Positions 237 through 34,812 of a stretch of DNA of 64,000 bases are shown here, in pieces. The position numbers and the translations under genes were made by a program. The notes under the pieces are model-generated. The model searched no databases. It was not told the origin of the DNA and worked only from the letters and a program-made list of their open reading frames with translations. Origin of the DNA: Sporosarcina sp. ANT_H38 (GTDB lineage Bacteria > Bacillota > Bacilli > Bacillales_A > Planococcaceae). Position 1 is the first letter of the stretch, and every line of letters begins with the position of its first letter. The DNA is taken from NCBI RefSeq assembly GCF_008369195.1, contig NZ_VOBC01000005.1:70658-134657 (forward strand). The letters are read 5' to 3'.

Positions 237-353
237 CAATTCTGTTGAGTAACCATTTATTTGCATGAAATACTGGTGAGAAGGGCTGATAACCTCCATT
301 TTTACTGGACTATTTTCTGACTGCTTTCGGCTAACTATTCATGACAGATCTAA

Positions 354-429
354 GGAGGAATTGCAATTCATTCCTCCCCAGAGGGGGTTCTAGCTACACT
401 TTTAGGGAGGAATTGTAGTTCATTCCTCC
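354..429. repeat. Two tandem GGAGGAAT/ATTCCTCC hairpins in copy A
   Basis: Arms at 354-361/370-377 and 406-413/422-429, separated by about 28 bp. They occupy the slot that in copies B and D holds an unrelated 17-18-bp hairpin. The same palindrome type recurs at 40700, 47271, 57178 and 63920. Confidence 0.6.
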
Positions 430-831
430 TTAGTAATCCTGTTGTGAATAGTTGCCTGTCGCGTTCCTACAATGTTCAAGTGAAAAATACAGTTATGTTT
501 GAAAGAAACGAATAGATGACTTTCTATAGAGAGTGTAAGTGCCCGAAGTTGCAATTTCGGGCACTCTTGTACATTGTAAAATGTGTTCCTTGCTTATTTT
601 TAGCAAAGAGTATGCATCTAATCATGTGATACCTATTAGAAAGTGACACTTCTTTAAAATAAATAAGTATAAACCATAGAGAAAGCATTAGCCGCCAAAA
701 TTGCATCTTTGGCGGCTTTTCTCCCGGTAAGAAGCCAGCTATTCATTCGTCCCAATAAGCTTTAGCACTATGTGTACTTAAGCATTTGGAGAGCGACGGG
801 TGAAGGACTACCATACGATTACAGAAAAAAG

Positions 832-866
832 TGTGTAGGGATGCGACAAAGTCGCATCCCTACACA
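832..866 (-). terminator. 16-bp perfect palindrome, terminator-like (copy A)
   Basis: Arms 832-847 and 851-866 flank a 3-nt loop. On the minus strand the second arm runs into CTTTTTT, so it reads as an intrinsic terminator for leftward transcription. The same hairpin with a T7 tail occurs in copies C (20461) and D (34207). Confidence 0.65.
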
Positions 867-1021
867 TCCAGACATCTCGGTAATCGTACTAGAAGTCATT
901 TAATCCTAAGCGGTCCCAATGCGCAACTATACAAGTGCGGCGGGGGATCAAGTTATTTACTGGTTAATTTTGGTGATCGACAGACGTGTAGTGGTAAGTA
1001 TCTTTTATATATAATAACGCA

Positions 1022-1789
1022 TTATGCTTTTTGAGCTACAAGATGTTCATCGAAAGCATCAATAATTTGCAGGAAGTGATCAGCTTCACGGTAGACGTGG
1101 TCAGCAAGAAGAGCAGGTATATTGCTCTTTATTTTGCATGCTTCAATTAAATCTCTTGCAGTCTTCTTAAAATCGCGTAACGATACAACAGAAACTCTAT
1201 TTTGGTCAAGAAAATGTTCTAAAAGCGGTTGAGTTTCTGACTGAGGACGCATATGATCCAAATCTTGTGCTTGGAAAAGTAGTTGGTCGAAATCATGGCT
1301 AAAATCACGCGCTTGATCGACAAGTTTTCTTTCGGAAGGATCTAATAGATGGCTGATGAATTTTGAGTGATCCGCCATTATTTTTAAGAAAAATACATTC
1401 TCTTTAATGATTGCCTCAGGTAAAGGTATCAACTTACCTTCATTTAATTCCTTCAATCGCTTAGCAAAATAAGCCGCCTCTCGGCTCGTGTGGTCAACTA
1501 ATAATGGAATATTATTGGACACAATTTGACATCGTAATATCAATCCAAGCACTTTTCGTTTATAAGCCCAAATAGAAGCCGTCGCCTGATACACTTGAAT
1601 GTTTAGTTGTCTAATTACATTTGGATCTGTGGTTGCGTTGTAGTTGCTGATTTGTTCTTCAATCCGTTCAAATACTACAATAAATTGCTGTGCTTCTCGA
1701 ATAAGTTCGGTATCATTTGCAGTAAATCCGAGACTTAAAAAGAAAGCGTGTTCCTTCATAATCCGTGCCCAAAATCGGATTTCGTCCAA
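1022..1789 (-). CDS. DUF2935 family protein (two ferritin-like helical repeats)
   Basis: A 255-codon protein that I recognise as DUF2935 (PF11155), a family of unknown biochemical function with two related helical bundles carrying conserved His/Glu residues that could bind metal. The duplication is visible: FWARIMKEHAFFLSLGF near the N-terminus resembles IIKENVFFLKIMADHSKFI in the middle, and PLLVDHTSREAAYF resembles PALLADHVYREADHF near the C-terminus. No membrane segment is seen. The given start is a TTG (1789). A good ribosome site, AAGAGGAG, lies further upstream before an ATG that is out of frame by one base. The frame is open upstream and would read IPTFVTQSLDEI, so the true N-terminus is uncertain. 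It stands alone. Confidence 0.85.
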   Translation of the reverse strand: MDEIRFWARIMKEHAFFLSLGFTANDTELIREAQQFIVVFERIEEQISNYNATTDPNVIRQLNIQVYQATASIWAYKRKVLGLILRCQIVSNNIPLLVDHTSREAAYFAKRLKELNEGKLIPLPEAIIKENVFFLKIMADHSKFISHLLDPSERKLVDQARDFSHDFDQLLFQAQDLDHMRPQSETQPLLEHFLDQNRVSVVSLRDFKKTARDLIEACKIKSNIPALLADHVYREADHFLQIIDAFDEHLVAQKA

Positions 1790-1924
1790 TGATTGAGTTA
1801 CAAATGTCGGAATCGCATATTCACTCCTCTTAAAGTATTGACCTTATCTACTCTATTCGGAGCAGGATGAATCCATGCTGTTTCTACTTTAAATAGTAAT
1901 AGTTTAGGATTAAGACACATGTTA

Positions 1925-2857
1925 TTAGGGGCTAACAACAGGTTCCATCACAGTTAAAGTCCGGTTATATGTGTTCATATTCAAGGTTGCGCCAATAGGT
2001 ATTGTTGCTTTGTATGTACCATGTGCAGTTGCTAGATTGGACATGAGTGGTTTACCCAAAGGAACTAGAAAATCGTTAATAAGATCTTGATAGGATTTTC
2101 CATATGCATCCACACAATTCGTACATTCACCCATTATTATCCCTATACAATCATCGAATTTCTTGGCCATTAAAAGATGATTCAAATACCTGTAAACAGT
2201 GTTAATCGGTTCATGCGTTTCTTCGAGTACGATAATTTTACCCACCGTATTTATTTCAAATGATGTTCCTAATGTACCTATGAAAGATGTAATATTACCT
2301 CCGATAACGGGGCCAGTTACATTTCCGGGAACTATGCTTTCTAGGGACATTCCAGGAGGATTATTAATTTCCCAAGGTGCTGTTAACGTAGTGGCTGCTG
2401 AGAAGAATTGATTGAAGTTATAGGAAGGAGTATTTGGATTGAAATCTATAAGGAGAAGGCTATGAAAAGTAATTAGGTTTGCATATTCGTAAAGTACATT
2501 CAGCAGTACCGTAATGTCACTGTATCCTGAAACTATTTTTGGGTTTTGTCGGATAATTGAAAAGTCGAGAAAGGGAAGAATACTTGCTACGCCAACTCCA
2601 CCTCGCGAAGGTAATATCCATTTCACTTCTTTATTCAAAAACATTTTCATCAAATCCGATGCCATTTGTTGAGGTGTCGCTGCAAGGAACCCATTCGATG
2701 AATAGACATGCTCTCCTACAATCACTTTAAATCCCCTATTTCTTAAAGTGGTTATCCCTTCGTTTATTCTGCTTGCTGCCAACGGACTACCTAATGTAAC
2801 AATTCCAACAGTATCGCCTGGCTGCAATCGAGGTGGCTTTATAGCCATTTTATACAT
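1925..2857 (-). CDS. LD-carboxypeptidase (peptidase S66, MccF-like)
   Basis: A 310-aa serine carboxypeptidase of family S66, which removes the terminal D-residue from muropeptide tetrapeptides or, in MccF members, cleaves microcin-C-type nucleotide peptides. Visible hallmarks are the N-terminal PGDTVGIVTLGSP, the glycine-rich PSRGGVGV, GYSDIT with the presumed nucleophile Ser113, the VLEET acidic segment and a late AHGTY histidine. No signal peptide, so it is cytoplasmic. ATG 2857 is chosen over the upstream ATG at 2896 because AAAGGGAG lies just before it and the protein then begins like its family. Monocistronic. Muropeptide recycling and microcin immunity cannot be separated by sequence alone. 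Confidence 0.88.
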   Translation of the reverse strand: MYKMAIKPPRLQPGDTVGIVTLGSPLAASRINEGITTLRNRGFKVIVGEHVYSSNGFLAATPQQMASDLMKMFLNKEVKWILPSRGGVGVASILPFLDFSIIRQNPKIVSGYSDITVLLNVLYEYANLITFHSLLLIDFNPNTPSYNFNQFFSAATTLTAPWEINNPPGMSLESIVPGNVTGPVIGGNITSFIGTLGTSFEINTVGKIIVLEETHEPINTVYRYLNHLLMAKKFDDCIGIIMGECTNCVDAYGKSYQDLINDFLVPLGKPLMSNLATAHGTYKATIPIGATLNMNTYNRTLTVMEPVVSP

Positions 2858-3167
2858 ACAGCTCCCTTTTATAGTTAATATAATCATGAGAATCATTGAA
2901 TCCTGTACTTACTGCTACCACAATTCAAAGGGATCATATTGTATTAGTAACTGGCACAGGAATACGTAATTAGTTTGCAGTTACAATCTTGAAGTTACAA
3001 ATATAGATGGGCAGTATTGAATGGAATCCTTCATTCATTCAATCAGCCTAGTTGTATCTTTAAGCCTAGTTAGAATTTACAGTTGCAGGACCTTTCGCAT
3101 ATGATATAATAAATAAAAAGAATGATTAGAATAATCTGTATTAATCATTTGGTGTGAGGTTATAATT
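2858..3167. other. Divergent intergenic region
   Basis: This holds the promoters of the divergent LD-carboxypeptidase and phosphodiesterase genes. Only the rightward promoter (3076-3105) is clear. No small gene is seen. Confidence 0.5.
3076..3105 (+). promoter_or_regulatory. Sigma-A promoter of the GDPD gene
   Basis: TTTACA (3076-3081), an 18-bp spacer and TATGAT (3100-3105), with an overlapping TATAAT at 3105-3110. It is about 60 bp upstream of the start codon. Confidence 0.6.
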
Positions 3168-4010
3168 ATGGGGGATTTTCAGAAAAAAAAGCTAGTATTC
3201 GTCTTTGTAAGTATATGTATGCTGCTTCTAGTTGGTTACGAGGCTCGACCTTTTAAAGCTGTGGATATTAATGGGATGATTAGCGTTGCGCACCGCGGCG
3301 CTTCCAATTATGCTCCGGAAAATACACAATCCTCTTTTCGAAAAGCGCTGGAGCTTGGGGCGGATTTCTTAGAATGTGATATTCATCTATCAAAAGATGG
3401 AGAGTTAATCATTATGCATGACGACAAGGTGGATAGGACAACAAATGGTTCTGGCTATGTGAAAAACTTCACGCTTGCCGAATTGAAAGAGCTAGACGCA
3501 GGAGGGGAATTTCATTCGTCTTTTGCAGGTGAAAAAATCATTACTTTAAATGAATTGCTCGATGAGTTTTATGGAGAGACTGGTTTATTAATAGAGATTA
3601 AGAAACCGGCCATGTACCCGGGAATCGAAGAGAAAGTAGCAGTGTTGTTAAATGAATATAAGGATTTGGACAGCATTATTGTTCAATCTTTCGATATCGA
3701 ATCGATGAGGACAATGAACAAATTGCTTCCGGAATTAGAAGTGGCCCTACTCATGAAACCATCCATTCAATCTCTGTCGCTTCAAAAAATAATTGACCTG
3801 ACATCCTTTGCAACATACATTAACTTTAACGTCTCCTATGTCAATCAACGCGTTATCGATCAAATTCATAATCAAGGCGGAAAAGTATTAGTTTGGTCTA
3901 CGAAAGATCAGGGATGGGTGAACAAAGCTTATCAATACGGAGTTGATGGCATTATTACAGATTTTTCAATTTGGCCGGTCGAGAGTCCCATTCAGCTGGT
4001 GCAAGATTAG
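3168..4010 (+). CDS. Glycerophosphodiester phosphodiesterase, membrane-anchored or exported
   Basis: A 280-aa GDPD-family enzyme that hydrolyses glycerophosphodiesters (lipid or teichoic-acid breakdown products) to glycerol-3-phosphate and an alcohol. Residues 8-24 form a hydrophobic signal/anchor, so the TIM-barrel domain probably acts outside the membrane. The catalytic set is visible: His42-Arg43 in AHRGAS, Glu51 in PENT, Glu69 and Asp71 in LECDIH and His84 in IMHDD. Length fits the bacterial family. The gene has its own promoter. Its likely terminator is now separated from it by MITE copy B. Confidence 0.93.
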   Translation: MGDFQKKKLVFVFVSICMLLLVGYEARPFKAVDINGMISVAHRGASNYAPENTQSSFRKALELGADFLECDIHLSKDGELIIMHDDKVDRTTNGSGYVKNFTLAELKELDAGGEFHSSFAGEKIITLNELLDEFYGETGLLIEIKKPAMYPGIEEKVAVLLNEYKDLDSIIVQSFDIESMRTMNKLLPELEVALLMKPSIQSLSLQKIIDLTSFATYINFNVSYVNQRVIDQIHNQGGKVLVWSTKDQGWVNKAYQYGVDGIITDFSIWPVESPIQLVQD

Positions 4011-4020
4011 TCAATAGTAT

Positions 4021-4704
4021 CACGTCTGTTGATTAACCATATAGTTGCATAAAATACTGGTGAGAAGGGTTTGATAAACACCATTTTAACTGGGCTATTT
4101 TCGGACTGCTTTCGGCTAACTATTCATGACAGATTTACTGTGGGTCCGAGTGTGGCTAGAAGTGACTCCGTCACTTCTAGCCACACTCTTTTTCATTAAT
4201 ACTGTTACGAATCGTTGCCTGTTGCGTTCCTACAATGTTCAAGTGAAAAATTCTGTTGCTTTGAAAGAAAAGAATAGATGACATTCTATGGAAAGTGTAA
4301 GTGCCCGAAGATACAATTTCGGGCACTCTTGCAGTATTGTACAATGTGTTCCTTGCTTACTTTTAGCAGAGATTATGCATTTAATCATGTGATGTCTTAT
4401 AGAAAGTGACACATCTTTAAAATAAATAAGAAAAAACCATAGAGAAAGCATCAGCCGCCAAAATTGTATCTTTGGCGGCTTTTCTCCCGGTAAGAAGCCA
4501 GCTATTCTTTCGTCCCAAAAATCTTAAGTACTCTGTGTACTTAATCATTTGAAGCGCGACGGATGGAGGACAAATATATGACACCTCGGTAATCGTACTA
4601 GAAGTCATCCAAATCCAAAGCGTTCCAAAAGCGCAACTATACAAATAGTGGCCGGCGGGGAATTACGTTACTTACTGGTTATTTTTGGTTGATCAACAGA
4701 TGTG
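4021..4704 (+). mobile_element. Hairpin-rich MITE-like element, copy B (8-bp target duplication)
   Basis: The cleanest copy, 684 bp. The left end is CACGTCTGTTGATTAACCA (4021-4039) and the right end is the inverted counterpart TTGGTTGATCAACAGATGTG, ending at 4704. The 8-bp CAATAGTA stands on both sides (4012-4019 and 4705-4712), a classic target-site duplication. It holds a perfect 18-bp hairpin with a T5 tail (4148-4188), the GTGCCCGAA/TTCGGGCAC hairpin near 4300 and the GCCGCCAAA/TTTGGCGGC hairpin near 4453. It lacks the 16-17-bp TGTGTAGGGATGCGAC palindrome found in copies A, C and D. No transposase. Confidence 0.8.
4148..4193 (+). terminator. 18-bp perfect hairpin with T-run (copy B)
   Basis: Arms 4148-4165 and 4171-4188, loop CTCCG, followed by TTTTT. 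It reads as an intrinsic terminator for the upstream GDPD transcript. The same hairpin occurs in copy D at 34623-34661. Confidence 0.7.
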
Positions 4705-4714
4705 CAATAGTACA

Positions 4715-4757
4715 AAAAGAAATCCAGTATCAGCCTAAATGGTGGAGACTGGATTTT
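4715..4757 (+). terminator. Displaced terminator of the GDPD gene
   Basis: AATCCAGT and ACTGGATT arms followed by TTCT. It lies just beyond the MITE copy B target duplication and in front of a promoter, so it was probably the original terminator of the gene ending at 4010. Confidence 0.5.
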
Positions 4758-4785
4758 CTAATTTGGAAACTCATAATTGGCTTTC

Positions 4786-4814
4786 TTGACATTGAAAATC
4801 AAGAGCCATACACT
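4786..4814 (+). promoter_or_regulatory. Sigma-A promoter of the D-Asp-ligase-like gene
   Basis: Consensus TTGACA (4786-4791), a 17-bp spacer and TACACT (4809-4814), 30 bp before the start codon. Confidence 0.6.
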
Positions 4815-4844
4815 TATGAGTAGAAAAGATAGTTGGAGGATAAA

Positions 4845-6059
4845 ATGACAAATAATAATTTCATACCAATCATTATCGGGACAGACATGAATGCATACAA
4901 CATGGCGATTTCATTCCATGAGGAGTATGGCATCAAACCAATTCTAGTAGGAAAAGAACCTTTATCATTTACTAGTTTAAGTTCAATTATAAAGACCATA
5001 GAACTCAATCCTAAACTTCCTGAAAAACAAATATTCGTAAGCTTCTTGAAAGAGGTTGCAGTGAAGTATGCTGAACCGGGGAAAAAAATGTTGCTCATTG
5101 GAACGAATGATCTTTACGTCCGGATGATTATTGAAAATGCGGACGAGCTGAAAAGTCATTTCGTATTTAATTATATTTCAGAACCACTTATGAACGATGT
5201 GCTCGTAAAATCGAATTTCTATAAGTTATGTGCTGAACACGGCATCGAAGCTCCAGCGACATATTACTATTCTTGTCGGGATGAAAATCCTTTCTCAGAA
5301 AAGGTAATGTTCCCAATCATTATCAAGCCAAGCAATGGAGTCGAGTATTATAAGAATCCGTTTACAGGCATGGAAAAAGTGTATAAGGTTGATTCCTACG
5401 ATGAAGTCCAGAAAGTTATTGAAAAAATAAAAGCGAGCGGCTATCAAGAGGACCTCATTATCCAGGATTATATTCCAGGGGACGATACATACATGTGGGA
5501 TTCAGTGTTCTATATGAACAGCCAAGGGAAAGCTGAACTGATTACGTTTGCTCAAGTTGTGCTACAAGAGCATACCGTCACTGCAATAGGTAATTATACA
5601 GCGCTCATTACTCGATATAATGAAGAAATTATGTTGAAACTCAAAGGCTTCCTTGAAGCACTGAACTACGTCGGCTACGCGAACTTTGATTTGAAGTATG
5701 ACGAGCGGGATGGTAAGTTCAAAGTGTTTGAAGTGAATATACGACAAGGACGGTCGAGTTACTATATCACTGCTTGCGGGCATAATATGGCAAAGTACTT
5801 GGTCGATGATGTCATCCATGGTCAACAGAAAGAGCTGACGCTACTAAATGAAAAATTCCTATTCACTGTCGTACCTAAAATCGTACTAAAGAAATTTGTA
5901 TCTAACCAAGAAGTACTTAAAGATGTGAAAGCATTGCTTCGAGCAGGGAAGTATGGCAATCCTTTGTTTTATAAAAAAGATCATAATTTCAAGCGGAAGC
6001 TGTATTTATTCGCTAGACAGATTAATTACTACCGTAAATATAAAAATAGTACATGGTAA
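4845..6059 (+). CDS. ATP-grasp carboxylate-amine ligase, D-aspartate-ligase-like
   Basis: A 404-aa ATP-grasp enzyme. The N-terminus FIPIIIGTDMNAYNMAISF and the later YISEPLMNDVLVKSNFY region resemble the enterococcal D-aspartate ligase (Aslfm), which adds D-Asp through its beta-carboxyl to the lysine side chain of peptidoglycan precursors. The ATP-grasp elements FPIIIKPSNG (nucleotide lysine) and FEVNIRQGRSS (metal-binding Glu/Asn) are present. Cytoplasmic, no membrane segment. ATG 4845 follows TTGGAGGA; an in-frame TTG four codons upstream is part of that ribosome site. A role in making the L-Lys-D-Asp or D-Glu cross-bridge is inferred from the family. No racemase is nearby, and other ATP-grasp substrates are possible. 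Confidence 0.8.
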   Translation: MTNNNFIPIIIGTDMNAYNMAISFHEEYGIKPILVGKEPLSFTSLSSIIKTIELNPKLPEKQIFVSFLKEVAVKYAEPGKKMLLIGTNDLYVRMIIENADELKSHFVFNYISEPLMNDVLVKSNFYKLCAEHGIEAPATYYYSCRDENPFSEKVMFPIIIKPSNGVEYYKNPFTGMEKVYKVDSYDEVQKVIEKIKASGYQEDLIIQDYIPGDDTYMWDSVFYMNSQGKAELITFAQVVLQEHTVTAIGNYTALITRYNEEIMLKLKGFLEALNYVGYANFDLKYDERDGKFKVFEVNIRQGRSSYYITACGHNMAKYLVDDVIHGQQKELTLLNEKFLFTVVPKIVLKKFVSNQEVLKDVKALLRAGKYGNPLFYKKDHNFKRKLYLFARQINYYRKYKNSTW

Positions 6060-6060
6060 A

Positions 6061-6096
6061 ACAATCCCCTATACGAAACGTATAGGGGATTGTTTT
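6061..6096. terminator. Bidirectional terminator
   Basis: A perfect 14-bp inverted repeat (6061-6074/6080-6093) with TTTT after it, between the convergent ligase and chemoreceptor genes. Confidence 0.85.
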
Positions 6097-6110
6097 AGTG
6101 TTGGGGTCTT

Positions 6111-7334
6111 TTAAGATTCCACTATCGAATCTAACTGCATGCTAATTTGGCTTAGACTGCCGGCGGACTCTGCAATCATGGCAATCATATTGTTTTGTTT
6201 TTTTATGGATGAAGTAATATTTTCTACGGATGTTGCGGTTTGCTGAGAAACACGGGATGAGTTTTGTATAGCAATCGTTATCGTCTGATTTTGTTCAGTC
6301 ACTTTTTTTAGTTCATCATTTAAGGTATCGATTGCTTCAATGGTTTGTGTAACGGCTTGGCGAATGGCGATAAATTCTTTTTCCGTTGCTTTTACGGACT
6401 CGTCAAGTTGTTTAGAATGGGCAATGGTTTCGGTCATTGTTAGGACAGTCTTTTCTGTTTCGTGTTCAATGCTAGCAATCATTTTTTGAATTTGTTGTGT
6501 CGAAGTATTCGACTGCTCCGCTAATTTACGTACTTCGCTCGCAACAACAGCAAATCCCTTCCCATGCTCGCCTGCCCTTGCTGCTTCTATGCTTGCGTTT
6601 AGTGCCAATAAATTCGTTTCTGAGGAAATACTTTTGATCGTTTCAGTTATCCGGGAAATATCCAATGTTTTATTATATAATGCTGAAATACTTACACTAA
6701 TTTGATCTGAAGCGTGTAAAGATTCTTCATTGGATTGTTTAAGCTGAGCAACTATCTTTGCTCCTTTTTGTGTTGCTACTTCTGAATTTGTTGTCACTTG
6801 TCTAATGATCTGATTTTGTTGATTCATCATATCAATCGATTCGTTCATCATCTTTACTCGTTCACTGACGATTTCCATATCTGTGACCTGATGCAAGACT
6901 TCGTGGGAGATGCCAAGGATGGCGCTGTTAATATCAACACTACTGGCTGAGGTTTCTTCGGAAATGGCTGTAAGCTCTCCTGCAGACAATATGACATGCA
7001 TACTCGCATCACTCACCTGTCGGAAAAGCACCTCAGTGTTATTTGAAAGGCTATGAATGACTAGATGTAGCTTTTCGATATCATCCGTAGTATTTAAACA
7101 ATCTATCTTGGATAGCGATGATGCCTCTAACGCTGTTTGAGCCAATAAAGTAAATGTTTTCGCGAAAATTAAATAGAATGCCAGTATGCTCAAAATCACA
7201 AGTATGCCAATCGCTAAATAGGTAAGAAGTAAACCTTCCCATTGTGCAAAAAGAGAGGCAGCTCCTCCGACGATTAATAAAAGGACACTATGAACAGTTA
7301 TTAGTTTTATGAATAAAGAATTTTTAATAAGCAT
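6111..7334 (-). CDS. Methyl-accepting chemotaxis protein without extracellular sensor domain
   Basis: A 407-aa chemoreceptor. Two hydrophobic segments near residues 8-26 and 34-55 are separated by only a few residues, so there is no extracellular ligand domain. Signals would have to come from the membrane or the cytoplasm. The rest is a long coiled-coil signalling domain with the conserved hairpin tip [19 protein letters not shown] and [15 protein letters not shown], which contacts CheA/CheW. ATG 7334 is preferred (GGAG eight bases upstream) over a GTG three codons earlier. No sigma-D promoter was recognised upstream. Monocistronic, ligand unknown. Confidence 0.9.
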
Positions 7335-7405
7335 TATTTTCACTCCAGACTTTTTCCCTGTAGGATAAAATAGTTAAATACTATCAGATAGTGCTTGTGA
7401 AAAAA

Positions 7406-7441
7406 CGGTGTCAGACTTGGAGAAATCAGTGCCTGACACCG
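7406..7441 (-). terminator. Terminator of the PTS operon
   Basis: CGGTGTCAG (7406-7414) pairs with CTGACACCG (7433-7441). On the minus strand it is followed by TTTTTT, eight bases beyond the stop of the MupG-like gene. GGTGTCAGGCAC-type hairpins are common in Bacillales. Confidence 0.8.
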
Positions 7442-7448
7442 CTAAAGA

Positions 7449-20333: not shown

Positions 20334-20763
20334 CACGTCTGTTAATTAACTGAAAATAACCAGTAAATAACTTAATTACGACCCCGGCCGCACTTGTATA
20401 GTCGCGCTTTGGGGTCGCTTTGGATTGAATGACTTCTAGTACGATAACCGATAGATCTGGATGTGTAGGGATGCGACTTTGTCGCATCCCTACACATTTT
20501 TTTCGGTAATCGAATGGTTGTCCTTCATACGTCGGGCACTTACACTCTCCATAGAATGTCATCTATTCTTTTCTTCCAAAACAACCGCATTTTTCACTTG
20601 AACATTGGAGGAACGCGACAGGCAACTATTCACATCAGGAGTCCTAGTAAATCTGTCACGAATAGGTAACCGAAAGCAGTCCGAAAAAATTTCAGTGAAA
20701 ATGGAGGTTATTAAGCACTTCTCGCCAGTATTTTTTGCGAATATATGGTTAATTAACAGACGG
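20334..20763 (-). mobile_element. Hairpin-rich MITE-like element, copy C (internally deleted, inverted)
   Basis: A 430-bp copy in the opposite orientation to A and B. The ends are CACGTCTGTTAATTAAC at 20334 and GGTTAATTAACAGACGG, ending at 20763. Compared with copies A and B, it joins the region around 20530 directly to the GGGCACTTACACTCTCC segment, losing about 250 bp including the GCCGCCAAA hairpin. It keeps the 17-bp ATGTGTAGGGATGCGAC palindrome (20461-20497) with a T7 tail. No clear target duplication is left. Confidence 0.7.
20461..20504 (+). terminator. 17-bp perfect hairpin with T7 (copy C)
   Basis: Arms 20461-20477 and 20481-20497 around a TTT loop, then seven T residues: a textbook intrinsic terminator. 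It lies downstream of the helicase gene and could end its transcript. Confidence 0.75.
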
Positions 20764-20926
20764 GAATTCATAAGTACTTATGTATCGAGCGAAAGCGCCG
20801 TAGAAGGTGTAACCGAAGCCCTAAGACTTGTTGGCTTAGCTGCTTGGCTTAAAGGTGGAAGGCATCCCTCTAGCGCTGTAGTAATTTGAATAGAGATCTT
20901 TATTGCAACCTGTATAGAAAATAATT
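20764..20926. other. Non-coding stretch after MITE copy C
   Basis: An open frame of about 40 codons runs from inside copy C to 20889 but has no ribosome site and no recognisable family. It contains the small inverted repeat CTAAGACTTGTTGGCTTAG. No gene is called. Confidence 0.4.
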
Positions 20927-22429: not shown

Positions 22430-22540
22430 TTGGATTCCTCCATTTTACTTAACTATATAGGAAAATTACCATCCTTGTTAATCATCTTGCTTAAAGAATG
22501 GCCATCTTATACAATGTACTAGACAACTAAATAACTGGAA

Positions 22541-22625
22541 CCACAGGGGGAGCCTATTTTGGCTGAGATTGGACAAGTCGTCCTGACCCTTAGAACCTGT
22601 AAGATTATTCTTGCGTAGGAATGTG
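22541..22625 (+). ncRNA. TPP (THI-box) riboswitch
   Basis: The THI-box signatures are present in order: GGGGGAGCC, GGCTGAGA, GACCCTTAGAACCTG and the closing TTCTTGCGTAGGAA. It binds thiamine pyrophosphate in the nascent RNA. It is followed at once by an intrinsic terminator (22645-22677) and then by thiT, so it should shut off thiamine uptake by premature termination when TPP is plentiful. Confidence 0.96.
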
Positions 22626-22644
22626 GATGGAAACTGACATATTC

Positions 22645-27513: not shown

Positions 27514-27537
27514 AAAACCCAAATTGTTTAAGGGTTT
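27514..27537 (-). terminator. Terminator of the M29 aminopeptidase gene
   Basis: AAACCC/GGGTTT arms with TTTT on the minus strand, about 32 bp beyond the stop codon. Short stem, moderate strength. Confidence 0.55.
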
Positions 27538-27568
27538 CATGAAATGTTTTAAGTAATTGTGACGAATA

Positions 27569-28801
27569 TTAGAAAGTCCAGTTGCCCCCACGGAACACAG
27601 GTTCAGAAGAGCCATCGTCTTTGATGCCATCAATATCCATTTCCTCAGAGCCAACCATGAAGTCTACATGAGTGATGCTTTGGTTCAAACCGTGTTTTTC
27701 TAAATCCTCTCGTGCCATCGTTTTGCCACCTTCTAAACAAAATGAATATGCGCTTCCGAGAGCAAAGTGATTAGAGGCATTTTCATCGAACAATGTATTA
27801 TAGAAGAGTAGACCCGATTGTGAAATCGGGGAATCGTGTGGGACGAGTGCGACTTCACCGAGATGTTTTGCACCTTCATCTGTATCTATTAGACGTTGTA
27901 AAACTTCTCCGCCTTGTTCAGCTGAAACTTCAGTTACACGTCCATCTTTAAATGTTATTTTGAAGTTATCGATAATGTTTCCGCCGTAGCTTAACGGTTT
28001 TGTGCTTGATACATAGCCGTTGACACCGGTTTTCAAAGGAACAGTGAATACTTCTTCAGTCGGCATATTCGCCATAAAAGTGTGACCTTTCTCATTGATG
28101 CTGCCGGCTCCGCACCACAAGTGACCTTCAGGTAATTCAACGATTAGGTCAGTACCGGGCGCTGTGTAGTGAAGTTTGCGGTACCTTTTGTTATTCAGGT
28201 AATCGACTTTGGCATGCAAATTTTTGTCATGATTAACCCATTCTTGTATAGGATGTTGTTTGTCTGTACGTACTGCTTTAAAAATGGCTGTCCAAAGTGC
28301 TGATACTTGCTCTTCTTCCGTAAGTTCAGGGAACACTTTTGCTGCCCACGCTTTAGAAGGGACTGCGATTACAGTCCAGCTAATTTTATCAGACTGTACA
28401 TACTGACGATATTTGTCGAGTGCCTGTCCAGCAGCTTTTTGAGTATCAGCAATACGAGACTGCTCGATCCCTTTTAACAAGTCTGGACTTTGGGAAACGA
28501 TGCTCATGAATGCAGCACCTTTTTCTGCAAGCTGTTCACGCTCCATTACTTTCCACTCAGGAAATTCAGCAAAAGAATCAGTCGGTGCTTTTTCATAACG
28601 TAGTCTGGAAACAATATCGTCGGACCAATCGACAAACACTTGACGTGCACCTGCATCATAAGCTTTTTCGGTTATAAGACGAACAAATTCCATTGCTTCT
28701 GTTGAAGCATTGATATATAGATATTGGTTAGGTTGAATATTGACACCTACCTGTACTGCGAGTTCAGCATAGCGGGATAGTTGTTTTTCGAAAGTAGACA
28801 T
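27569..28801 (-). CDS. Aminopeptidase of family M29 (AmpS-like)
   Basis: A 410-aa metal-dependent aminopeptidase related to AmpS and aminopeptidase T, releasing N-terminal residues from peptides in the cytoplasm. The N-terminal LSRYAELAVQVGVNIQPNQ and the C-terminal LVPHDSPISQSGLLFYNTL and ENASNHFALGSAY segments, which carry metal-binding Glu and His residues, are characteristic. Length matches the family. Monocistronic with its own terminator. Confidence 0.92.
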   Translation of the reverse strand: MSTFEKQLSRYAELAVQVGVNIQPNQYLYINASTEAMEFVRLITEKAYDAGARQVFVDWSDDIVSRLRYEKAPTDSFAEFPEWKVMEREQLAEKGAAFMSIVSQSPDLLKGIEQSRIADTQKAAGQALDKYRQYVQSDKISWTVIAVPSKAWAAKVFPELTEEEQVSALWTAIFKAVRTDKQHPIQEWVNHDKNLHAKVDYLNNKRYRKLHYTAPGTDLIVELPEGHLWCGAGSINEKGHTFMANMPTEEVFTVPLKTGVNGYVSSTKPLSYGGNIIDNFKITFKDGRVTEVSAEQGGEVLQRLIDTDEGAKHLGEVALVPHDSPISQSGLLFYNTLFDENASNHFALGSAYSFCLEGGKTMAREDLEKHGLNQSITHVDFMVGSEEMDIDGIKDDGSSEPVFRGGNWTF

Positions 28802-28926
28802 GAATAATTACTCCTTCCTTTATCTTCTATTAATAGTACCAATTTATTGTCCTGACCTGCAACGTTGAATTTATGATAAATTGTGACAGAATGAATTGTA
28901 TCGAATATTTTTTACTTCTGTTCACC

Positions 28927-28953
28927 TAAAGAATAGGCTGAAGATGCCGAAAT
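28927..28953 (+). promoter_or_regulatory. Sigma-D (flagellar) promoter of motAB
   Basis: TAAA (28927-28930), a 15-bp spacer and GCCGAAAT (28946-28953), one mismatch from the Bacillus sigma-D consensus TAAA-N15-GCCGATAT, 34 bp before motA. Confidence 0.85.
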
Positions 28954-28986
28954 AAGAAGAAGAATGGAATATTTGGAGGGTCACCT

Positions 28987-29802
28987 ATGGATTTATCAAC
29001 AGTAATTGGTCTAGTACTAGGTTTTGTCGCACTTCTTGTCGGTATGACGATGAAAGGCGTCCCAGTGGATAGCCTATTTAATGTCGCAGCTATACTAATA
29101 ATAATTGTAGGAACGGTTGCAGCTGTCGTCATTGCATTTCCGATGAATGAGTTAAAACGTGTACCTAAACTATTTGGTGTGCTTTTTAAAGAACAGAAAC
29201 TTGCTTCCGATGCCGATATTATCCGTATGTTTTCAAGTTGGGCTGATATTGCACGACGTGAAGGATTATTATCGCTTGAGGCAAAAACTGACGAAATTAA
29301 TGATCCGTTTTTGAAAAATGGTTTGGGTCTCGCAATTGATGGACAAAATGCCGATTATATTCGTGATGTGTTAAGTGAAGAAGTGGAAGCTATGGAAGAT
29401 AGGCATTCTGCGGGAGCACAAATATTCTCACAAGCGGGGACTTACGCACCGACACTGGGCGTACTGGGAGCAGTGGTAGGTCTTATCGCAGCACTTGGAA
29501 ATTTGAATGATATCGATGCACTTGGTCATGCGATTTCAGCAGCTTTTATTGCGACATTGCTTGGTATTTTTACTGGATATGTGCTTTGGCATCCATTTGC
29601 GAATAAATTAAAACGTAAATCGCACGAAGAGGTAAGGCAAAAGAAAATGATGATTGAAGGGGTCCTTTCGGTTCTTGAAGGGGAGGCACCACGCGTTATT
29701 GAGCAGAAACTTTCTTCATATCTGTCTGCGGAAGAACGCCGAAAGCTAGCCGTAATAAACAATGGCGATAAGGGGGCGGGAGAGTTTGTCGAAGAGACGT
29801 AA
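28987..29802 (+). CDS. motA: Flagellar motor stator protein MotA
   Basis: A 271-aa stator subunit with four membrane segments (about residues 2-21, 34-52, 150-170 and 180-202) and a cytoplasmic loop carrying charged residues that contact FliG. AGTYAPTLGVLGAVVGLIAAL and LLGIFTGYVLWHPFANKLKRKS are nearly as in B. subtilis MotA. Its stop lies within the start of motB. Preceded by a sigma-D promoter and ribosome site TTGGAGGG. Confidence 0.95.
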   Translation: MDLSTVIGLVLGFVALLVGMTMKGVPVDSLFNVAAILIIIVGTVAAVVIAFPMNELKRVPKLFGVLFKEQKLASDADIIRMFSSWADIARREGLLSLEAKTDEINDPFLKNGLGLAIDGQNADYIRDVLSEEVEAMEDRHSAGAQIFSQAGTYAPTLGVLGAVVGLIAALGNLNDIDALGHAISAAFIATLLGIFTGYVLWHPFANKLKRKSHEEVRQKKMMIEGVLSVLEGEAPRVIEQKLSSYLSAEERRKLAVINNGDKGAGEFVEET

Positions 29803-30544
29803 GAGAAAAAAGGATAATAACCATATAGATGAGTCCTGGCTATTGCCATACTCCGACCTTATGACTCTTCTTCTCGCCTTATTTATCGTCCTGTTTGCCT
29901 CAAGTTCAGTAGATGAAGCTAAACTTAAACAGATGTCAGCAGTATTCGGTGAAATATTTGATAGTGGGCAGGGCGTGATGGATAATGCAGGACCTTCAGT
30001 TGTGCCTATACCGAAAGACTCCATTGGGACTAATGAGGAAAACTCATCCTACTTGGAAGATCAGAAATCCCTTAGTGAGATTCAGGAGCGGGTAGATGAA
30101 TATATTGCTGTAAATGAATTGGAAAATCAATTCGAAACGAAAATGACGGACGAAGGTTTGATGGTTACGATTAGGGATAGTATCCTATTTAGTCCAGGTA
30201 TGGCGGATATCAAGCCTGAGTATAAAGGGATTGCAGATGATATTGCAGAACTTCTTGTTTTTGACCCACCCCGTCATATCGTTGTCACTGGTCACACGGA
30301 TAATATTCCTATTAAAAATGCTCAGTTCCAATCTAACTGGGAACTTAGTGTGATGAGAGCTGTGAATTTCTTGAAAAGTATTGTGAAAAATGAAGAAATC
30401 AATCCACTTTTATTCAGTGCAAAAGGGTACGGTGAGTTCCAACCACTCGAATCAAATGCAACAGCTGAGGGACGAAGTAAGAACCGTCGGGTAGAAGTAC
30501 TTATCCAACCACTCGTACTAAAAGATGGAACTGCATTTGAATGA
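29786..30544 (+). CDS. motB: Flagellar motor stator protein MotB
   Basis: A 252-aa stator subunit. A basic N-terminus, one membrane helix with the proton-binding Asp in LLPYSDLMTLLLALFIVLF, a linker and a C-terminal OmpA-like peptidoglycan-binding domain (VVTGHTDNIPIKNA, FSAKGYGEF, NRRVEVLI). The sequence resembles the proton-type MotB more than sodium-type MotS. The frame is open from ATG 29762. A TTG at 29786 (MSKRRKRKK) fits the homologue length and has AAGGGGG eight bases ahead, so I prefer it. It overlaps motA by 17 bp. Confidence 0.93.
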   Translation: MSKRRKRKKDNNHIDESWLLPYSDLMTLLLALFIVLFASSSVDEAKLKQMSAVFGEIFDSGQGVMDNAGPSVVPIPKDSIGTNEENSSYLEDQKSLSEIQERVDEYIAVNELENQFETKMTDEGLMVTIRDSILFSPGMADIKPEYKGIADDIAELLVFDPPRHIVVTGHTDNIPIKNAQFQSNWELSVMRAVNFLKSIVKNEEINPLLFSAKGYGEFQPLESNATAEGRSKNRRVEVLIQPLVLKDGTAFE

Positions 30545-30551
30545 AATTCAA

Positions 30552-30593
30552 AAAAAGATTCACCGGTAAACTCATACCGGTGAATCTCTTTTT
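30552..30593. terminator. Bidirectional terminator
   Basis: AGATTCACCGGT/ACCGGTGAATCT hairpin between poly-A and TTTTT, separating convergent motB and yfkK. Confidence 0.88.
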
Positions 30594-30600
30594 AGATTAC

Positions 30601-30822
30601 TTAACTTCTTAGCGTACCGAGTTCAGCTGCAATTGCCTGCATTTCATTCGGTGTAATAGTAGTACGTTTCATGACCATTTTGTACATGTAGTGCAAGTCA
30701 TCATATTTAGTGGTACTAAAATTCTCCGGGTTCATAGCGGCTGAATTAACCATACGAAGTTTTTCTGTGATTTTGTCAATCATATAAGAAATATTTTCTG
30801 GTGTCGGGTTAGATAAATCCAT
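30601..30822 (-). CDS. yfkK: UPF0435 family protein YfkK (DUF1128)
   Basis: A 73-aa cytoplasmic protein of unknown function. MDLSNPTPENISYMIDKI and FSTTKYDDLHYMYKMVM match the UPF0435/YfkK family. ATG 30822 follows AAAGGTGG; a GTG four codons upstream sits in that site. In B. subtilis, yfkK lies near yfkH and yfkF, and relatives of both are close by here. Confidence 0.88.
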   Translation of the reverse strand: MDLSNPTPENISYMIDKITEKLRMVNSAAMNPENFSTTKYDDLHYMYKMVMKRTTITPNEMQAIAAELGTLRS

Positions 30823-30897
30823 AGTATTGTCCACCTTTCGATAAGCTTTGGACCTATCATTTCATTATTCTCCCGGACTGTCAAATCGAATAGGAGA

Positions 30898-32256
30898 TCA
30901 GCCTCGTTTAGCGGCTTCTCTTTCCTCTTTAAGTTTTGCATTGAACCGTTTTGTTTCAAAGACGATGACCCCAGATAACCCAAGCAGCCCAATTAAGTTC
31001 GGTATTGCCATGAGTCCGTTCATCACGTCAGCGAATAACCAAACAGCATCAAGAGTCGCTGTAGCACCTACAAAGATGACTGCGATAAATACGACACGGT
31101 AGTAGATTAGAACTTTAGGATTTGGGAATAGGTATTGGAAACACTTCTCTCCATAATAAGCCCAACCGAAAATTGTTGATGTAGCAAAGAATATCAATCC
31201 AATTGCAACAACAATTGGTCCCGCACCACCAAGGAACTCACCGAACGCGGCAGCTGTGAGCGAGCCGGCTTCAATGCTCTTGTCTTTCCACATGCCAGAC
31301 ATGACGATTGTCACACCGGTGATTGAACAGATAACTAGAGTGTCGAATAATACTTGTGTCATAGAAACGAGTGCTTGACGACCTGGTAAGTCAGTTCTGG
31401 CCGCAGCAGCAGCAATCGGAGCAGATCCAAGACCTGCTTCATTAGAAAAGAGACCACGTGCTACCCCGAAACGGATCGCCGCACCGATTGCTCCCCCAAC
31501 AGCCGCTTCACCGGTAAATGCAAATTTGAATATAGTTGCAAAAGCCTCTGGAATAAGGTTGATGTTCATAATCATTACTATTAAACCGGCGATTAAATAA
31601 AAACCCGCCATTACAGGAACGAAAAATGATGTAACTTTACCAATCGTTTTTATCCCGCCAATAATAACCATTCCGCCTAGAACAACAAGAACGATTCCTG
31701 TAATCCAATGTGGGACACTAAACGTTGAGTTCAAGACATCGGCAACTGCTTTCGATTGTGTTCCGTTACCAATACCAAACGCTGCGATTGCACCGAAGAT
31801 GGCGAACAAAACGCCGAGCCATTTCATTTTTAGACCGTGTTCAAGATAGTACATTGGCCCTCCAGCCATTTGTCCATTAGCATCCTTGACGCGATATTTA
31901 ACTGCGAGAATTGCTTCTCCATATTTTGTAGCCATCCCGAAGAATCCGGCCATCCACATCCAGAACACTGCTCCTGGTCCGCCGAAATAAATGGCTGTCG
32001 CAACTCCGACTATATTCCCTACACCGACTGTGGCGGCCATTGCTGTCATCAGTGCCTGGAAGTGGGAAATATCGCCTTCTGATGTTTTATCCTGATTTTT
32101 AGAGAAAACGAGTTTTAATGCATAAGGTAACATACGTACTTGAATAAGTCCTAGTCTTACTGTTAAAAAGATACCCGTTCCGACAAGAAGGATAAGCAAA
32201 GGCGGTCCCCAAATAAATCCGCTAGCCTTATCTAAAAAAGCTGTTAATCCATCCAT
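30898..32256 (-). CDS. Sodium:alanine symporter family (AGCS) transporter
   Basis: A 452-aa membrane protein with about 10-11 segments that takes up alanine, glycine or glutamine with sodium. Family landmarks are visible: GVGNIVGVATAIYFGGPGAV, the AGLGSAPIAAAAARTD loop and YGEKCFQYLFP. It resembles AlsT/GlnT of Bacillus; the exact substrate is not decidable. Start 32256 (MDGLTAFLDKASGF) follows GGGGGTAATGGT-type ribosome site. Monocistronic. Confidence 0.92.
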   Translation of the reverse strand: MDGLTAFLDKASGFIWGPPLLILLVGTGIFLTVRLGLIQVRMLPYALKLVFSKNQDKTSEGDISHFQALMTAMAATVGVGNIVGVATAIYFGGPGAVFWMWMAGFFGMATKYGEAILAVKYRVKDANGQMAGGPMYYLEHGLKMKWLGVLFAIFGAIAAFGIGNGTQSKAVADVLNSTFSVPHWITGIVLVVLGGMVIIGGIKTIGKVTSFFVPVMAGFYLIAGLIVMIMNINLIPEAFATIFKFAFTGEAAVGGAIGAAIRFGVARGLFSNEAGLGSAPIAAAAARTDLPGRQALVSMTQVLFDTLVICSITGVTIVMSGMWKDKSIEAGSLTAAAFGEFLGGAGPIVVAIGLIFFATSTIFGWAYYGEKCFQYLFPNPKVLIYYRVVFIAVIFVGATATLDAVWLFADVMNGLMAIPNLIGLLGLSGVIVFETKRFNAKLKEEREAAKRG

Positions 32257-32415
32257 ACCATTACCCCCAATTATGTTGTTATACGTGCAACCTTAAACAC
32301 CCCTAATTTGAATAAACCTCACATCCTCTCAGTCTCTCTATTTCGCCATCCTTATTGTTAATATTCCGAAATTTCACAGCTTTCGTCAAGCTTTATTTTA
32401 AAAGTCTGACATATA

Positions 32416-32441
32416 GTTTGACTTTCCTACTTCTGGGGTAT
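32416..32441 (+). promoter_or_regulatory. Sigma-B-like promoter of ytxH-type/yfkH pair
   Basis: GTTTGA (32416-32421), a 14-bp spacer and GGGTAT (32436-32441), close to the Bacillus sigma-B consensus GTTTAA-N12/14-GGGTAT. It overlaps a possible sigma-A pair TTGACT/TATAAT with a short 15-bp spacer. Confidence 0.6.
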
Positions 32442-32480
32442 AATTCTCTATACGAAAGAGATTGAATTGGAGGGCTTTTT

Positions 32481-32861
32481 ATGAGTAATAGCAAATTTGG
32501 TACATTTATTATTGTGGGTGCACTTACAGGTGCGGTTGTAAGTATGTTTGATCGGAGTACTCGAAAACATATAGTAAGGAAATCAACTACTTGTATAAGG
32601 GAAACGAAGTATTATGTGAAAAATCCCGATGTGCTCAAATGGAAATTAGATGAAAAGAAAGAAAAGTATAAGTCTGTCTTCGAGCAGCTATCAGGTGATG
32701 TATCATACATTAAAGCTCAGGTAGAGGAGTTAAAAACACTCACGCCGCAAGTGAAAGGTCTAGTCATGGATACGAAGGATACATTTGTTGAGTCAAAAGA
32801 TGAATACAAGTCAATTGTAAGTGAAACGCCTTTACAGGTGAAAACTGACTTGGAAAAGTAA
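32481..32861 (+). CDS. YtxH-like general stress protein
   Basis: A 126-aa protein with a glycine-rich N-terminal membrane segment (FGTFIIVGALTGAVVSMF) and a long charged helical tail, the layout of the YtxH family. Function unknown; relatives are often under sigma-B control and a sigma-B-like promoter lies 40 bp upstream. The yfkH-like gene follows 26 bp downstream in the same direction. Confidence 0.78.
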   Translation: MSNSKFGTFIIVGALTGAVVSMFDRSTRKHIVRKSTTCIRETKYYVKNPDVLKWKLDEKKEKYKSVFEQLSGDVSYIKAQVEELKTLTPQVKGLVMDTKDTFVESKDEYKSIVSETPLQVKTDLEK

Positions 32862-32887
32862 ACAGTATTGAAAGGGGTGACGAAAGT

Positions 32888-33877
32888 TTGAAGAATAATG
32901 AACGATCAGCACCTATGCCAATTCAAGAAGACAAATCTAAGAAGAAAGTAGATGGCTTTATGGCAGATTCTGCAGCCATGAAGTTTTTCGATGATGTAAA
33001 AGAAGGCGGGCTTGAGGAATTTGACGTCACGACAACAAACGGTTTTTTGAAAGAACTTCTTGTCCGGATAAAGAAAGTCGATATAACGGGTCTTGGCTCG
33101 CAACTCGCCTTCTTTTTCCTTTTGTCTCTTTTTCCTCTATTAATCTTTATAATGACGTTGCTACCTTACTTAAACTTTAACCAAGCTGAAGTATTCTTAT
33201 TGATACGAGATTATGCACCTGAGAGCGTTGCTATGCTAATCGAGGACACATTAAACGAAATCTTGAAAAACCGTAATGGTGGCTTACTATCAATTGGTGC
33301 ACTTGCAACGGTGTGGTCAGCATCTAAAGGCATGAATGCACTTACGAAAGCTTTGAATCGATCTTATTTTACGGAAGAATCACGTTCGTTCATCATAGCC
33401 CGCGGTATGTCGGTTGTCTTTACTGTCATGCTAATTGCTGTACTGGTAGTGGCATTAGTATTACCGGTGTTCGGACAACAAATTGGAGTTCTTGCATTCT
33501 CTTACATGGGGTTGGAGGAAGGTTTCCTTACTTTATGGAATGGTTTACGTTGGATAGTACCGCCCGTACTTATTTTCTTTGTATTTTCACTTATCTATTG
33601 GCTAGTACCTAATTTGAAAATCCGATTTAAAAGTGTATTACCTGGGGCACTATTTGCGACAGTTGGTTGGATTATAACATCTCTTGGATTCTCCTTCTAT
33701 GTTGGTAGCTATGGTAATTATTCGAGTACTTATGGAAGTATTGGAGCAATTATTGTATTAATGATGTGGCTATACTTCTCTGCGATTATTCTGATGCTTG
33801 GTGGTCAGCTTAATGCCGTCACGTTGGAGAGAACTCAGTTGATGAAAGCTAAAGCAAAAAGCAATGCAGTCATGTAA
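32888..33877 (+). CDS. yfkH: YihY/BrkB family membrane protein (YfkH-like)
   Basis: A 329-aa inner-membrane protein of the YihY/virulence factor BrkB family, six hydrophobic segments after a 70-residue cytoplasmic N-terminus. LGSQLAFFFLLSLFPLLIF and the GSYGNYSSTYGSIGAIIVL stretch are family landmarks. It is not an RNase despite the old RbnB/RNase BN name. The molecular role is unknown. A TTG start at 32888 has AAAGGGG eight to nine bases ahead. Second gene of the pair with the YtxH-like gene. Confidence 0.88.
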   Translation: MKNNERSAPMPIQEDKSKKKVDGFMADSAAMKFFDDVKEGGLEEFDVTTTNGFLKELLVRIKKVDITGLGSQLAFFFLLSLFPLLIFIMTLLPYLNFNQAEVFLLIRDYAPESVAMLIEDTLNEILKNRNGGLLSIGALATVWSASKGMNALTKALNRSYFTEESRSFIIARGMSVVFTVMLIAVLVVALVLPVFGQQIGVLAFSYMGLEEGFLTLWNGLRWIVPPVLIFFVFSLIYWLVPNLKIRFKSVLPGALFATVGWIITSLGFSFYVGSYGNYSSTYGSIGAIIVLMMWLYFSAIILMLGGQLNAVTLERTQLMKAKAKSNAVM

Positions 33878-33897
33878 CATGATGCATTGCTTTTGTT
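33857..33897 (+). terminator. Terminator of yfkH
   Basis: AAAAGCAATGCA/TGCATTGCTTTT hairpin overlapping the yfkH stop codon, followed by TTTTGTTCT. Confidence 0.8.
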
Positions 33898-34119
33898 CTA
33901 TAAAAAGGCGCCTTTGCTGGTTATTACTGGGCGTCTATTTCATCAATACAGTTTGTAAGGAAGTTATTGACGATTATACCGAACAGCTTCAAATTTCAAC
34001 TGATTTAGGTTTGCGAGTAGGTCATAAAACCGAAGAGTCTTTTTTCTTTGGCTATAATACGTATATTGCGATGTATGATTAATTATAGCGCATGGAGACT
34101 GAAACAGTGCTCGGGGATA
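33898..34119. other. Intergenic, nothing recognised
   Basis: Between the yfkH terminator and the readable part of MITE copy D. A small open frame crosses it but has no ribosome site or family. The degenerate left end of copy D may begin inside. Confidence 0.4.
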
Positions 34120-34206
34120 CAGATTACTCCACTACCCCCTTGTATAGTTGCGCTTTTGGATTACTTTGGATTGAATGACTTCTATTACGATTACCGAGAT
34201 GGCTGG

Positions 34207-34250
34207 ATGTGTAGGGATGCGACTTTGTCGCATCCCTACACATTTTTTTC
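34207..34250 (+). terminator. 17-bp perfect hairpin with T7 (copy D)
   Basis: Arms 34207-34223 and 34227-34243, loop TTT, then TTTTTTT. Same sequence as in copy C. Confidence 0.72.
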
Positions 34251-34616
34251 GTTAATCGTATGGTTGTCCTTCATCCGTCGTGCTCCAAAAGCATAAGTAC
34301 ACAGAGTGCTGAAGCTTTTTGAGACGAAAGAATAGCTGGCTTCTTACCTAGAGAAAAGCCGCCAAAGATGCAATTTTGGCGGCTGATACTTTCTCTATGG
34401 TTTTTCTTATTTATATTAAAGAAGTGTCAATATCTATATGGCATCACATGATTAGATGCATAATCTTTGCTAAAAGAAAGCAAGGAACACATTGTACAAC
34501 GTACAAGAGTGCCCGAAATTGCATCTTCGGGCACTTACACTCTTCATAGAATGTCATCTATTTTTCACTTGAACATTGTAGGAACCCGACAGGCAACTAT
34601 TCACAACAGGAATGCT

Positions 34617-34661
34617 GAAAAAAGTGTGGCTAGAAGTGACTCCGTCACTTCTAGCCACACT
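34617..34661 (-). terminator. 17-bp perfect hairpin, minus-strand T-run (copy D)
   Basis: Arms 34623-34639 and 34645-34661, loop CTCCG. On the minus strand it is followed by TTTTTTC. It lies downstream of the metal ATPase gene and may end that transcript. Confidence 0.65.
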
Positions 34662-34812
34662 AGGCCCCCCTCAGAAAATCTGTCATGAATAGTTAGCTGA
34701 AAGCGGTCCGAAAATAGTCCAGTAAAAATGGAGGTTATTAAGCCCTACTCACTAGATTTTCATGTGAATAAATGATTATTTAACAGACGTGATAGTTAAT
34801 AATATTAATGGC

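Follow-up and report, generated by a model that had tools for sequence, protein, structure and literature searches.

Bacterial miniature inverted-repeat transposable elements (MITEs) are short, non-coding, many-copy elements with terminal inverted repeats, target duplications and an insertion sequence (IS) whose ends match theirs. Among related systems, MIC elements (mobile insertion cassettes) are non-autonomous and have ends of the IS4 family, and ERIC/IRU, Correia and REPIN elements are repeated intergenic palindromes, non-autonomous, whose transcripts can fold. Passages of one paper name MIC elements such as MIC231 and describe the bcr elements of Bacillus cereus, which are 100-400 bp long and tied to a TTTAT motif (PMC6542083). 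Template switching at inverted repeats is reported to yield homogenisation of the arms and inversion of the spacer (PMC8604942) and is argued to create and maintain hairpins (PMC8794818). Here we describe a repeat family in 64,000 nucleotides of Sporosarcina sp. ANT_H38 (contig NZ_VOBC01000005.1, positions 70,658 to 134,657; this whole stretch is hereafter the window). The evidence supports its identification as a MITE of Sporosarcina, about 736 bp long when intact, non-autonomous and without a transposase. In two of its hairpins, HP1 and HP2, the opposing arms change together far more often than expected by chance.

An earlier note on this DNA, made from the letters, had proposed a four-copy family. 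Within the window that count stands: copies A and B lie where the note placed them, copy C, internally deleted, ends at 20764 rather than 20763, and copy D, with one end eroded, begins at about 34111 (Table 1). Their common homology was seen in a repeat search, and C and D are reversed relative to A and B. Genome-wide the count of four falls, since at least 89 distinct segments, together 45,169 bp, are present in the Sporosarcina sp. ANT_H38 genome; of these, 77 reach 250 bp and 53 reach 500 bp. The count is a lower bound from the stretches analysed, among which copy C and some hairpin sites do not figure. A search with copy B of the genome it comes from (4.63 Mb in 19 contigs) yielded 145 candidates, 40 of them scored, and many further copies. 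With up to two mismatches allowed, the terminal repeat pattern CACGTCTGTTNATTAAC has 132 matches in the genome, against 5 for a reversed control. The inverted ends are of the CACGTCTGTTGATTAACCA type that the note had described: exact at the left end of B, decayed in A and recognisable on one side only in D.

The terminal inverted repeats measure 19 bp, and both ends are recognisable in 37 copies (33 from this genome, 4 from relatives). Across target duplication lengths of 5 to 12 bp in these copies, exactly 9 bp stands out: the mean identity of the flanks is 0.81, against 0.37 (standard deviation 0.026) in shuffled flanks, and 10 of the 37 pairs are perfect. The next best length, 8 bp, gives 0.39 against 0.31. 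Copies in relatives have a mean 9-bp identity of 0.86 over 34 rows, a set in which one insertion is listed twice and four rows also belong to the 37-copy test. Because the duplications are imperfect, many of the insertions are suggested to be old. The longest ATG open reading frame (ORF) per copy has a median of 56 aa and a maximum of 124 aa (56 copies); a 96-aa frame in the consensus is not kept in the consensus of a second subfamily, and no ORF is common to both.

The window also holds an empty site, 3' of a MotB-like ORF, at which a relative (G009) carries the full element; the flanks align with an 8-base gap at the duplication, and a second relative (G002) has an element remnant at the matching site. 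A less exact empty interval, with 68 bp left, was found for L185. At the interval of copy C six relatives (L157-L162) have no element, the interval being diverged and not base-precise. An empty site was also sought for L026, and its right flank is absent among the rows listed. These data bear out the MITE-like behaviour without transposase proposed in the note, through the 9-bp duplications, the empty site and a relative's IS whose ends match those of the element (below). A palindromic, intergenic, many-copy element could in principle also be copied by segmental duplication, or belong to an array of REP/BIME-type palindromes mobilised by a transposase of the Y1 (RAYT) type. We give these readings next to no weight. 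Exact 9-bp duplications at 19-bp ends and a matching DDE-type IS point to cut-and-paste insertion, and the duplication-less copies needed by the REP/BIME-RAYT reading were tested for, and the test fails. Segmental duplication, which the note had named as a possible source of the similarity, is ruled out because the copies are bounded by terminal repeats with 9-bp duplications directly outside them; moreover, further copies do exist, and a relative's insertion is absent here.

Two further arrangements were seen among the copies. In L038 (1296-2982; G000 C1:302800-307000) an EamA transporter gene lies between two partial, oppositely oriented copies, the ends of which carry terminal repeats; it resembles a MIC element, but by eye its outer 9-mers do not match. 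At one intergenic site, two species carry copies, L015 (1501-2164) and L198 (1459-2174), that share the left border and point in opposite directions, which suggests either an in-place inversion or a further insertion at that position.

As to the source of transposase, an IS with matching terminal repeats, for which the earlier note had proposed a search, is present in the relative G006; none was found in the strain's own genome. G006 has three intact copies, each of 1301 bp, whose transposase proteins are 97-100% identical. At its right end the IS agrees with the MITE end in all 19 positions, and at its left end in 16 or 17 (2-3 mismatches); its ends read CACGTCTGT in two of the three copies and CACATCTGT in the third, and 9-bp duplications flank two of the three. 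By eye, the 382-aa protein contains a Y(2)R(3)E(6)K motif, YKARWAIESFFHWIK. It is 47% identical to the 378-aa transposase of an IS in G022 (L037), which has ends close to those of the MITE and no duplication in its flanks. The G022 protein, on which the domain scans were run, matches Pfam DDE_Tnp_1 (E 6e-30) and the NCBIfam IS4 family (E 1.7e-59). Duplications of 9 bp likewise flank related IS copies in G002, G018 and G014. In a table of PMC2266710, the IS4Sa subgroup is given ends CA------T, a size of 1150-1750 bp and a duplication of 8-10 bp. The G006 IS is alike in its CA------T ends, its 1301 bp, its 9-bp duplication and its YREK motif, and by ends, size and duplication length, as that table gives them, it fits IS4Sa. 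The MITE shares little with the IS beyond the ends (by eye) and does not look like an internal-deletion derivative. From the matching ends, an IS4-family element of the G006 type is likely to mobilise the MITE in trans.

The family is confined to one genus among the genomes searched. Nine of 61 genomes match, the strain's own included, with at most nine candidates scored per genome; of the eight others, G022 and G029 match at the terminal repeat only and G007 in one 69% stretch. All 8 named matches to the exact 30-base end pattern are Sporosarcina, and a search of plasmid and phage records gave no match. G014 carries the second subfamily, with a 702-bp consensus (28 rows, 26 of them distinct) and a comparable fold (-298 kcal/mol).

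The 736-bp consensus, built from 56 copies, folds as a three-armed cloverleaf, equally well on both strands. The terminal repeats and the helices that follow them form the trunk; the left arm ends in HP1 (consensus 130-168), the right arm ends in HP2 (573-609), and the central arm holds two further hairpins, hp3 (280-307) and hp4 (432-459). With RNA parameters the two strands reach -309.8 and -311.4 kcal/mol, and 190 pairs are common to both folds, out of 270 and 266. With DNA parameters the values are -171.6 and -169.5 kcal/mol, against about -69 in 20 mononucleotide shuffles. The consensus folds more strongly than every one of the 56 copies, as expected if the ancestor was paired and the copies decay. 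That the hairpins exceed chance, as the note held, is clear from copy B, which folds at -230.4 kcal/mol against -160.8 (standard deviation 6.0) in 20 dinucleotide shuffles, and on its other strand at -206.5 against -151.1. By a terminator scan, its description of them as terminator-like holds for copies B and D, weakly for A and not for C: the numbers of such sites in A, B, C and D are 2, 2, 1 and 4, against 0.7, 0.3, 0.5 and 0.4 in shuffles. The HP2 region is deleted from copy B.

Concerted evolution of hairpin arms was unforeseen in the earlier note. We scored the arms in 116 distinct copies no shorter than 250 bp, 77 of the strain itself and 39 of relatives, regardless of stem quality, each hairpin only where all arm letters were present, so that compensated insertions and deletions drop out; for the null, right arms were shuffled among copies 1000 times. 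In HP1 (57 copies scored) there are 32 symmetric changes, against 2.1 expected and a shuffle maximum of 9, and 37 perfect stems, against 12.9. HP2 (65 copies scored) has 46 symmetric changes, against 6.4 expected and a maximum of 14, and 20 perfect stems, against 3.7. The distinct perfect paired variants number 12 in HP1, nine of them in a single copy, and 11 in HP2, all in a single copy. Neither control is raised: the stem just below HP2 (556-567/619-630) has 5 symmetric changes against 2.2, and the terminal repeats have 2 against 1.5. Moreover, loops are inverted: that of HP1 reads GGA instead of TCC in 5 of 57 copies, on several arm backgrounds, and that of HP2 reads TTT instead of AAA in 5 of 65. 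An insertion in one arm is matched in the opposite arm in L044. A deletion at ATTACC/TAGGG is one-armed in L019, L021, L030 and L115; in L083 and L047 both arms have it, and the stem, of 19-22 bp, is perfect. Paired arm changes, flipped loops, a compensated insertion and a deletion found in one or both arms together form the signature of DNA template switching, which is most likely the main cause of the arm matching. Selection on terminators is its chief rival and quite possibly contributes.

The case for that rival begins with the hairpins themselves. In most copies of a listing that was selected by stem quality and favours good stems, a T-run comes after HP1 on the + strand and after HP2 on the - strand; both hairpins are G+C-rich and inward-facing. 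A terminator function of HP1 and HP2 is plausible on these features, and with their T-runs they are predicted to stop transcription entering from either end. Placement is intergenic, with 33 convergent, 11 divergent and 32 tandem sites among 76 (convergent versus divergent, p = 0.0013); the count takes segments of at least 250 bp in the strain's own genome, element halves being counted apart where so listed. The hairpin arms are also less diverged than most of the element. HP1 and HP2 might then be kept by selection as intrinsic terminators of the adjoining genes, the paired changes being compensatory evolution of an RNA hairpin. As a full account we consider this doubtful. The terminator strand shows no preference for wobble changes (45, against 68 on the opposite strand, one insertion being included twice, as L033 and L179). 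Selection on single changes does not explain loop inversions or the compensated insertion, and 20 of the 23 distinct variants with perfect pairing are each confined to a single copy. Upkeep of the terminators by neighbouring genes showed no significant dependence: intact hairpins number 35 of 67 where a gene reads in and 14 of 33 where none does (p = 0.40; neighbour-gene data for 50 copies), a weak test.

Several findings weigh against the view that the arms are matched mainly by template switching and that an IS4-type element is the mobiliser. One-sided changes are still common (36 in HP1, 82 in HP2), so correction is incomplete. L180 (1570-2292) and L209 (1558-2196), the sole orthologous same-orientation pair found, share insertion and duplication in two species; their HP2 differs one-sidedly, the HP1 region is lost in one of them, and there is no arm correction. 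Symmetric changes are slightly raised in hp3 and hp4 too (6 against 0.6 in each), and perfect terminal-repeat pairs number 6 against 1.8. Shuffling of arms ignores the kinship of copies, and shared variants inflate the excess. Selection on terminators would single out the same two hairpins, because both also carry T-runs. For the mobiliser, a search of the strain's 19 contigs found no such transposase beyond a weak fragment, so that the copies there are stranded unless the assembly lacks the IS. Finally, pairwise double changes over all tested pairs amount to 2.1%, against 0.5% expected under independence, with 95 of 178 Watson-Crick; 21 of the Watson-Crick double changes fall in the lower left arm (94-199), below HP1, and by helix count 36 fall in HP1 and HP2 together.

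This excess of double changes and the very stable consensus folds (-310 kcal/mol, and a comparable -298 in the G014 subfamily) would also suit a large structured non-coding RNA carried on a transposon, with the cloverleaf as its functional fold, and structured RNA was among the suggestions of the earlier note. We regard it as very unlikely. The consensus folds equally well on either strand, the substitution spectrum is strand-symmetric, and single changes at paired positions are 312 G-U and 301 A-C, a near equality that speaks against an RNA of one strand because such an RNA would favour one kind. In most long-range helices the number of perfect copies does not exceed the prediction from independent decay; helices 391-476, 415-470 and 540-648 are somewhat above the prediction, and helix 201-539 is far below it (0 of 50 copies against 10 predicted), probably because the consensus there is not fully Watson-Crick. 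The two subfamily consensuses differ by 41 single and 5 paired Watson-Crick changes, three of the five in HP1 or HP2, or 38 and 9 with the comparison read reversed. Within the elements no Rfam family reaches the gathering score, and a permissive scan of copy B gave a sub-threshold microRNA match on HP1 only. Loop-loop pairing of hp3 and hp4 adds no significant covariation. Structured RNA is thus disfavoured by the strand symmetry and by the decay of most long helices.

The anatomy, the duplications, the empty site, the intergenic placement and a relative's IS with ends like those of the element are observed. We think it probable that the family is a MITE moved by an IS4Sa-type IS, with arms matched mainly by template switching and a putative two-way terminator role. 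An IS4-family transposase of the IS4Sa type would cut the 19-bp ends in trans and make the 9-bp duplications. The ancestral element was probably one nested inverted repeat, the cloverleaf, with two long triloop hairpins near its ends. During replication the polymerase would copy one arm from the other, or would cross to the opposite strand and flip the hairpin loop; the arms would then be matched mainly at the level of DNA and not by selection on RNA. Through the T-runs of HP1 and HP2 the element is predicted to act as a two-way terminator, so that its insertion behind genes would be harmless or useful, which fits the excess of sites between convergent genes. A bolder proposal is that the element is a portable two-way transcription insulator with self-repairing terminators. 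Its hairpins would be long and tight enough for replication errors to copy one arm onto the other, so that every inserted copy would retain working terminators with no need of selection at each site. In addition, the cloverleaf fold of the DNA might bring the two ends together for transposition. We put this forward as speculation that is probably wrong as a whole.

Paired changes in stems are usually taken as proof of a functional RNA, and they can, on our reading, arise without RNA function: here 23 distinct perfect paired variants occur in paralogous copies that appear to be decaying, neither strand is preferred, and loops are flipped. The family could offer a natural archive from which to measure template switching in a bacterial chromosome, and a cautionary control for the discovery of RNAs by covariation. 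To the Sporosarcina mobilome it contributes a further element of high copy number.

Table 1. Positions in the 64,000-nucleotide window of the four copies, their main hairpins and the empty site.
Feature	Position	Strand	Remarks
Copy A (L017)	237..988	+	full length, 752 bp; flanks gagtggtga/tagtggtaa, 7/9
Copy B (L001)	4021..4704	+	684 bp, reference orientation; flanks caatagtat/caatagtac, 8/9
Copy C	20334..20764	-	431 bp, internally deleted; flanks aataaataa/aattcataa, 7/9 (by eye)
Copy D (L013)	34111..34791	-	terminal repeat recognisable at 34791, opposite end eroded
HP1 of copy B	4148..4188	+	19-bp perfect stem, loop TCC, T-run on element + strand; terminator-like
HP1 of copy D	34623..34661	-	18-bp perfect stem, inverted loop GGA, T-run
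HP2 of copy A	832..866	-	16-bp perfect stem, T-run on element - strand
HP2 of copy C	20459..20499	+	element reversed, so T-run on window + strand
HP2 of copy D	34205..34245	+	element reversed
hp3 of copy A	538..565		AGTGCCCGAA...TTCGGGCACT
hp3 of copy B	4300..4327		
hp3 of copy D	34508..34535		
hp4 of copy A	690..717		AGCCGCC...GGCGGCT; best-conserved internal hairpin
hp4 of copy B	4453..4480		
hp4 of copy D	34357..34384		
Empty site	30547..30550		relative G009 carries full element L194, perfect duplication ATCTTGGAA; own genome without it

Smaller features of the hairpins and their surroundings were also recorded. The loops of hp3 and hp4 (consensus 290-297 and 442-449) are complementary over 8 bases and highly conserved. 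As kissing loops (GATGCAAT/ATTGCATC) they showed apparent covariation between copies B and D; over 46 copies it was not significant, 118 of 2000 shuffles being as good, and the pairing was rejected. Next to HP1, an extra hairpin of the GGAGGAATTGNARTTCATTCCTCC type, seen at 351-430 in copy A and in other copies, comes and goes among the copies, so that hairpins turn over as modules. L024, L040 (8458), L055, L112 and L043 lack the HP1 arm through a near-identical deletion by which GTGTGGCTAG is fused to TTGCC; it is either recurrent or marks a derived subfamily. Just outside copy A, at 164-204, lies a perfect hairpin, AACGACCCCCTCCTA...TAGGAGGGGGTCGTT (by eye), perhaps a native terminator. On the + strand at 22536-22638 there is a TPP riboswitch aptamer, which reaches the Rfam gathering score.

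In the literature searched, no paper joins Sporosarcina with miniature inverted-repeat transposable elements, and none of the papers listed by a wider search mentions Sporosarcina. In the searches made, the cloverleaf architecture with its record of arm rewriting was not found, and MITE with template switch in bacteria gave nothing on point by title. Set beside the known systems, the family shares with bacterial MITEs every general feature given at the outset, and it differs in that the whole consensus is a three-armed nested inverted repeat with two terminator-like hairpins whose arms co-evolve. ERIC/IRU, Correia and REPIN elements resemble it as palindromic, intergenic, non-autonomous repeats and are set apart, as they are generally described, by being shorter and of other origin. 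L038, with its EamA gene between two element halves, is like a MIC element, whereas most Sporosarcina copies carry no gene. The bcr1 and related repeats are likewise many-copy Bacillales repeats with features of mobile elements, but the passages that describe them give no IS4-type ends with 9-bp duplications (PMC6542083). Template-switch mutations are alike in arm homogenisation, spacer inversion, short spacers and paired changes made in one event (PMC8604942, PMC8794818); those studies concern yeast coding genes and RNA genes, and here the changes lie in paralogous copies of a bacterial mobile element. The MITE family is thus a new member of a kind already known, with IS4Sa-like ends, an unusual cloverleaf and two terminator-like hairpins that evolve in concert.

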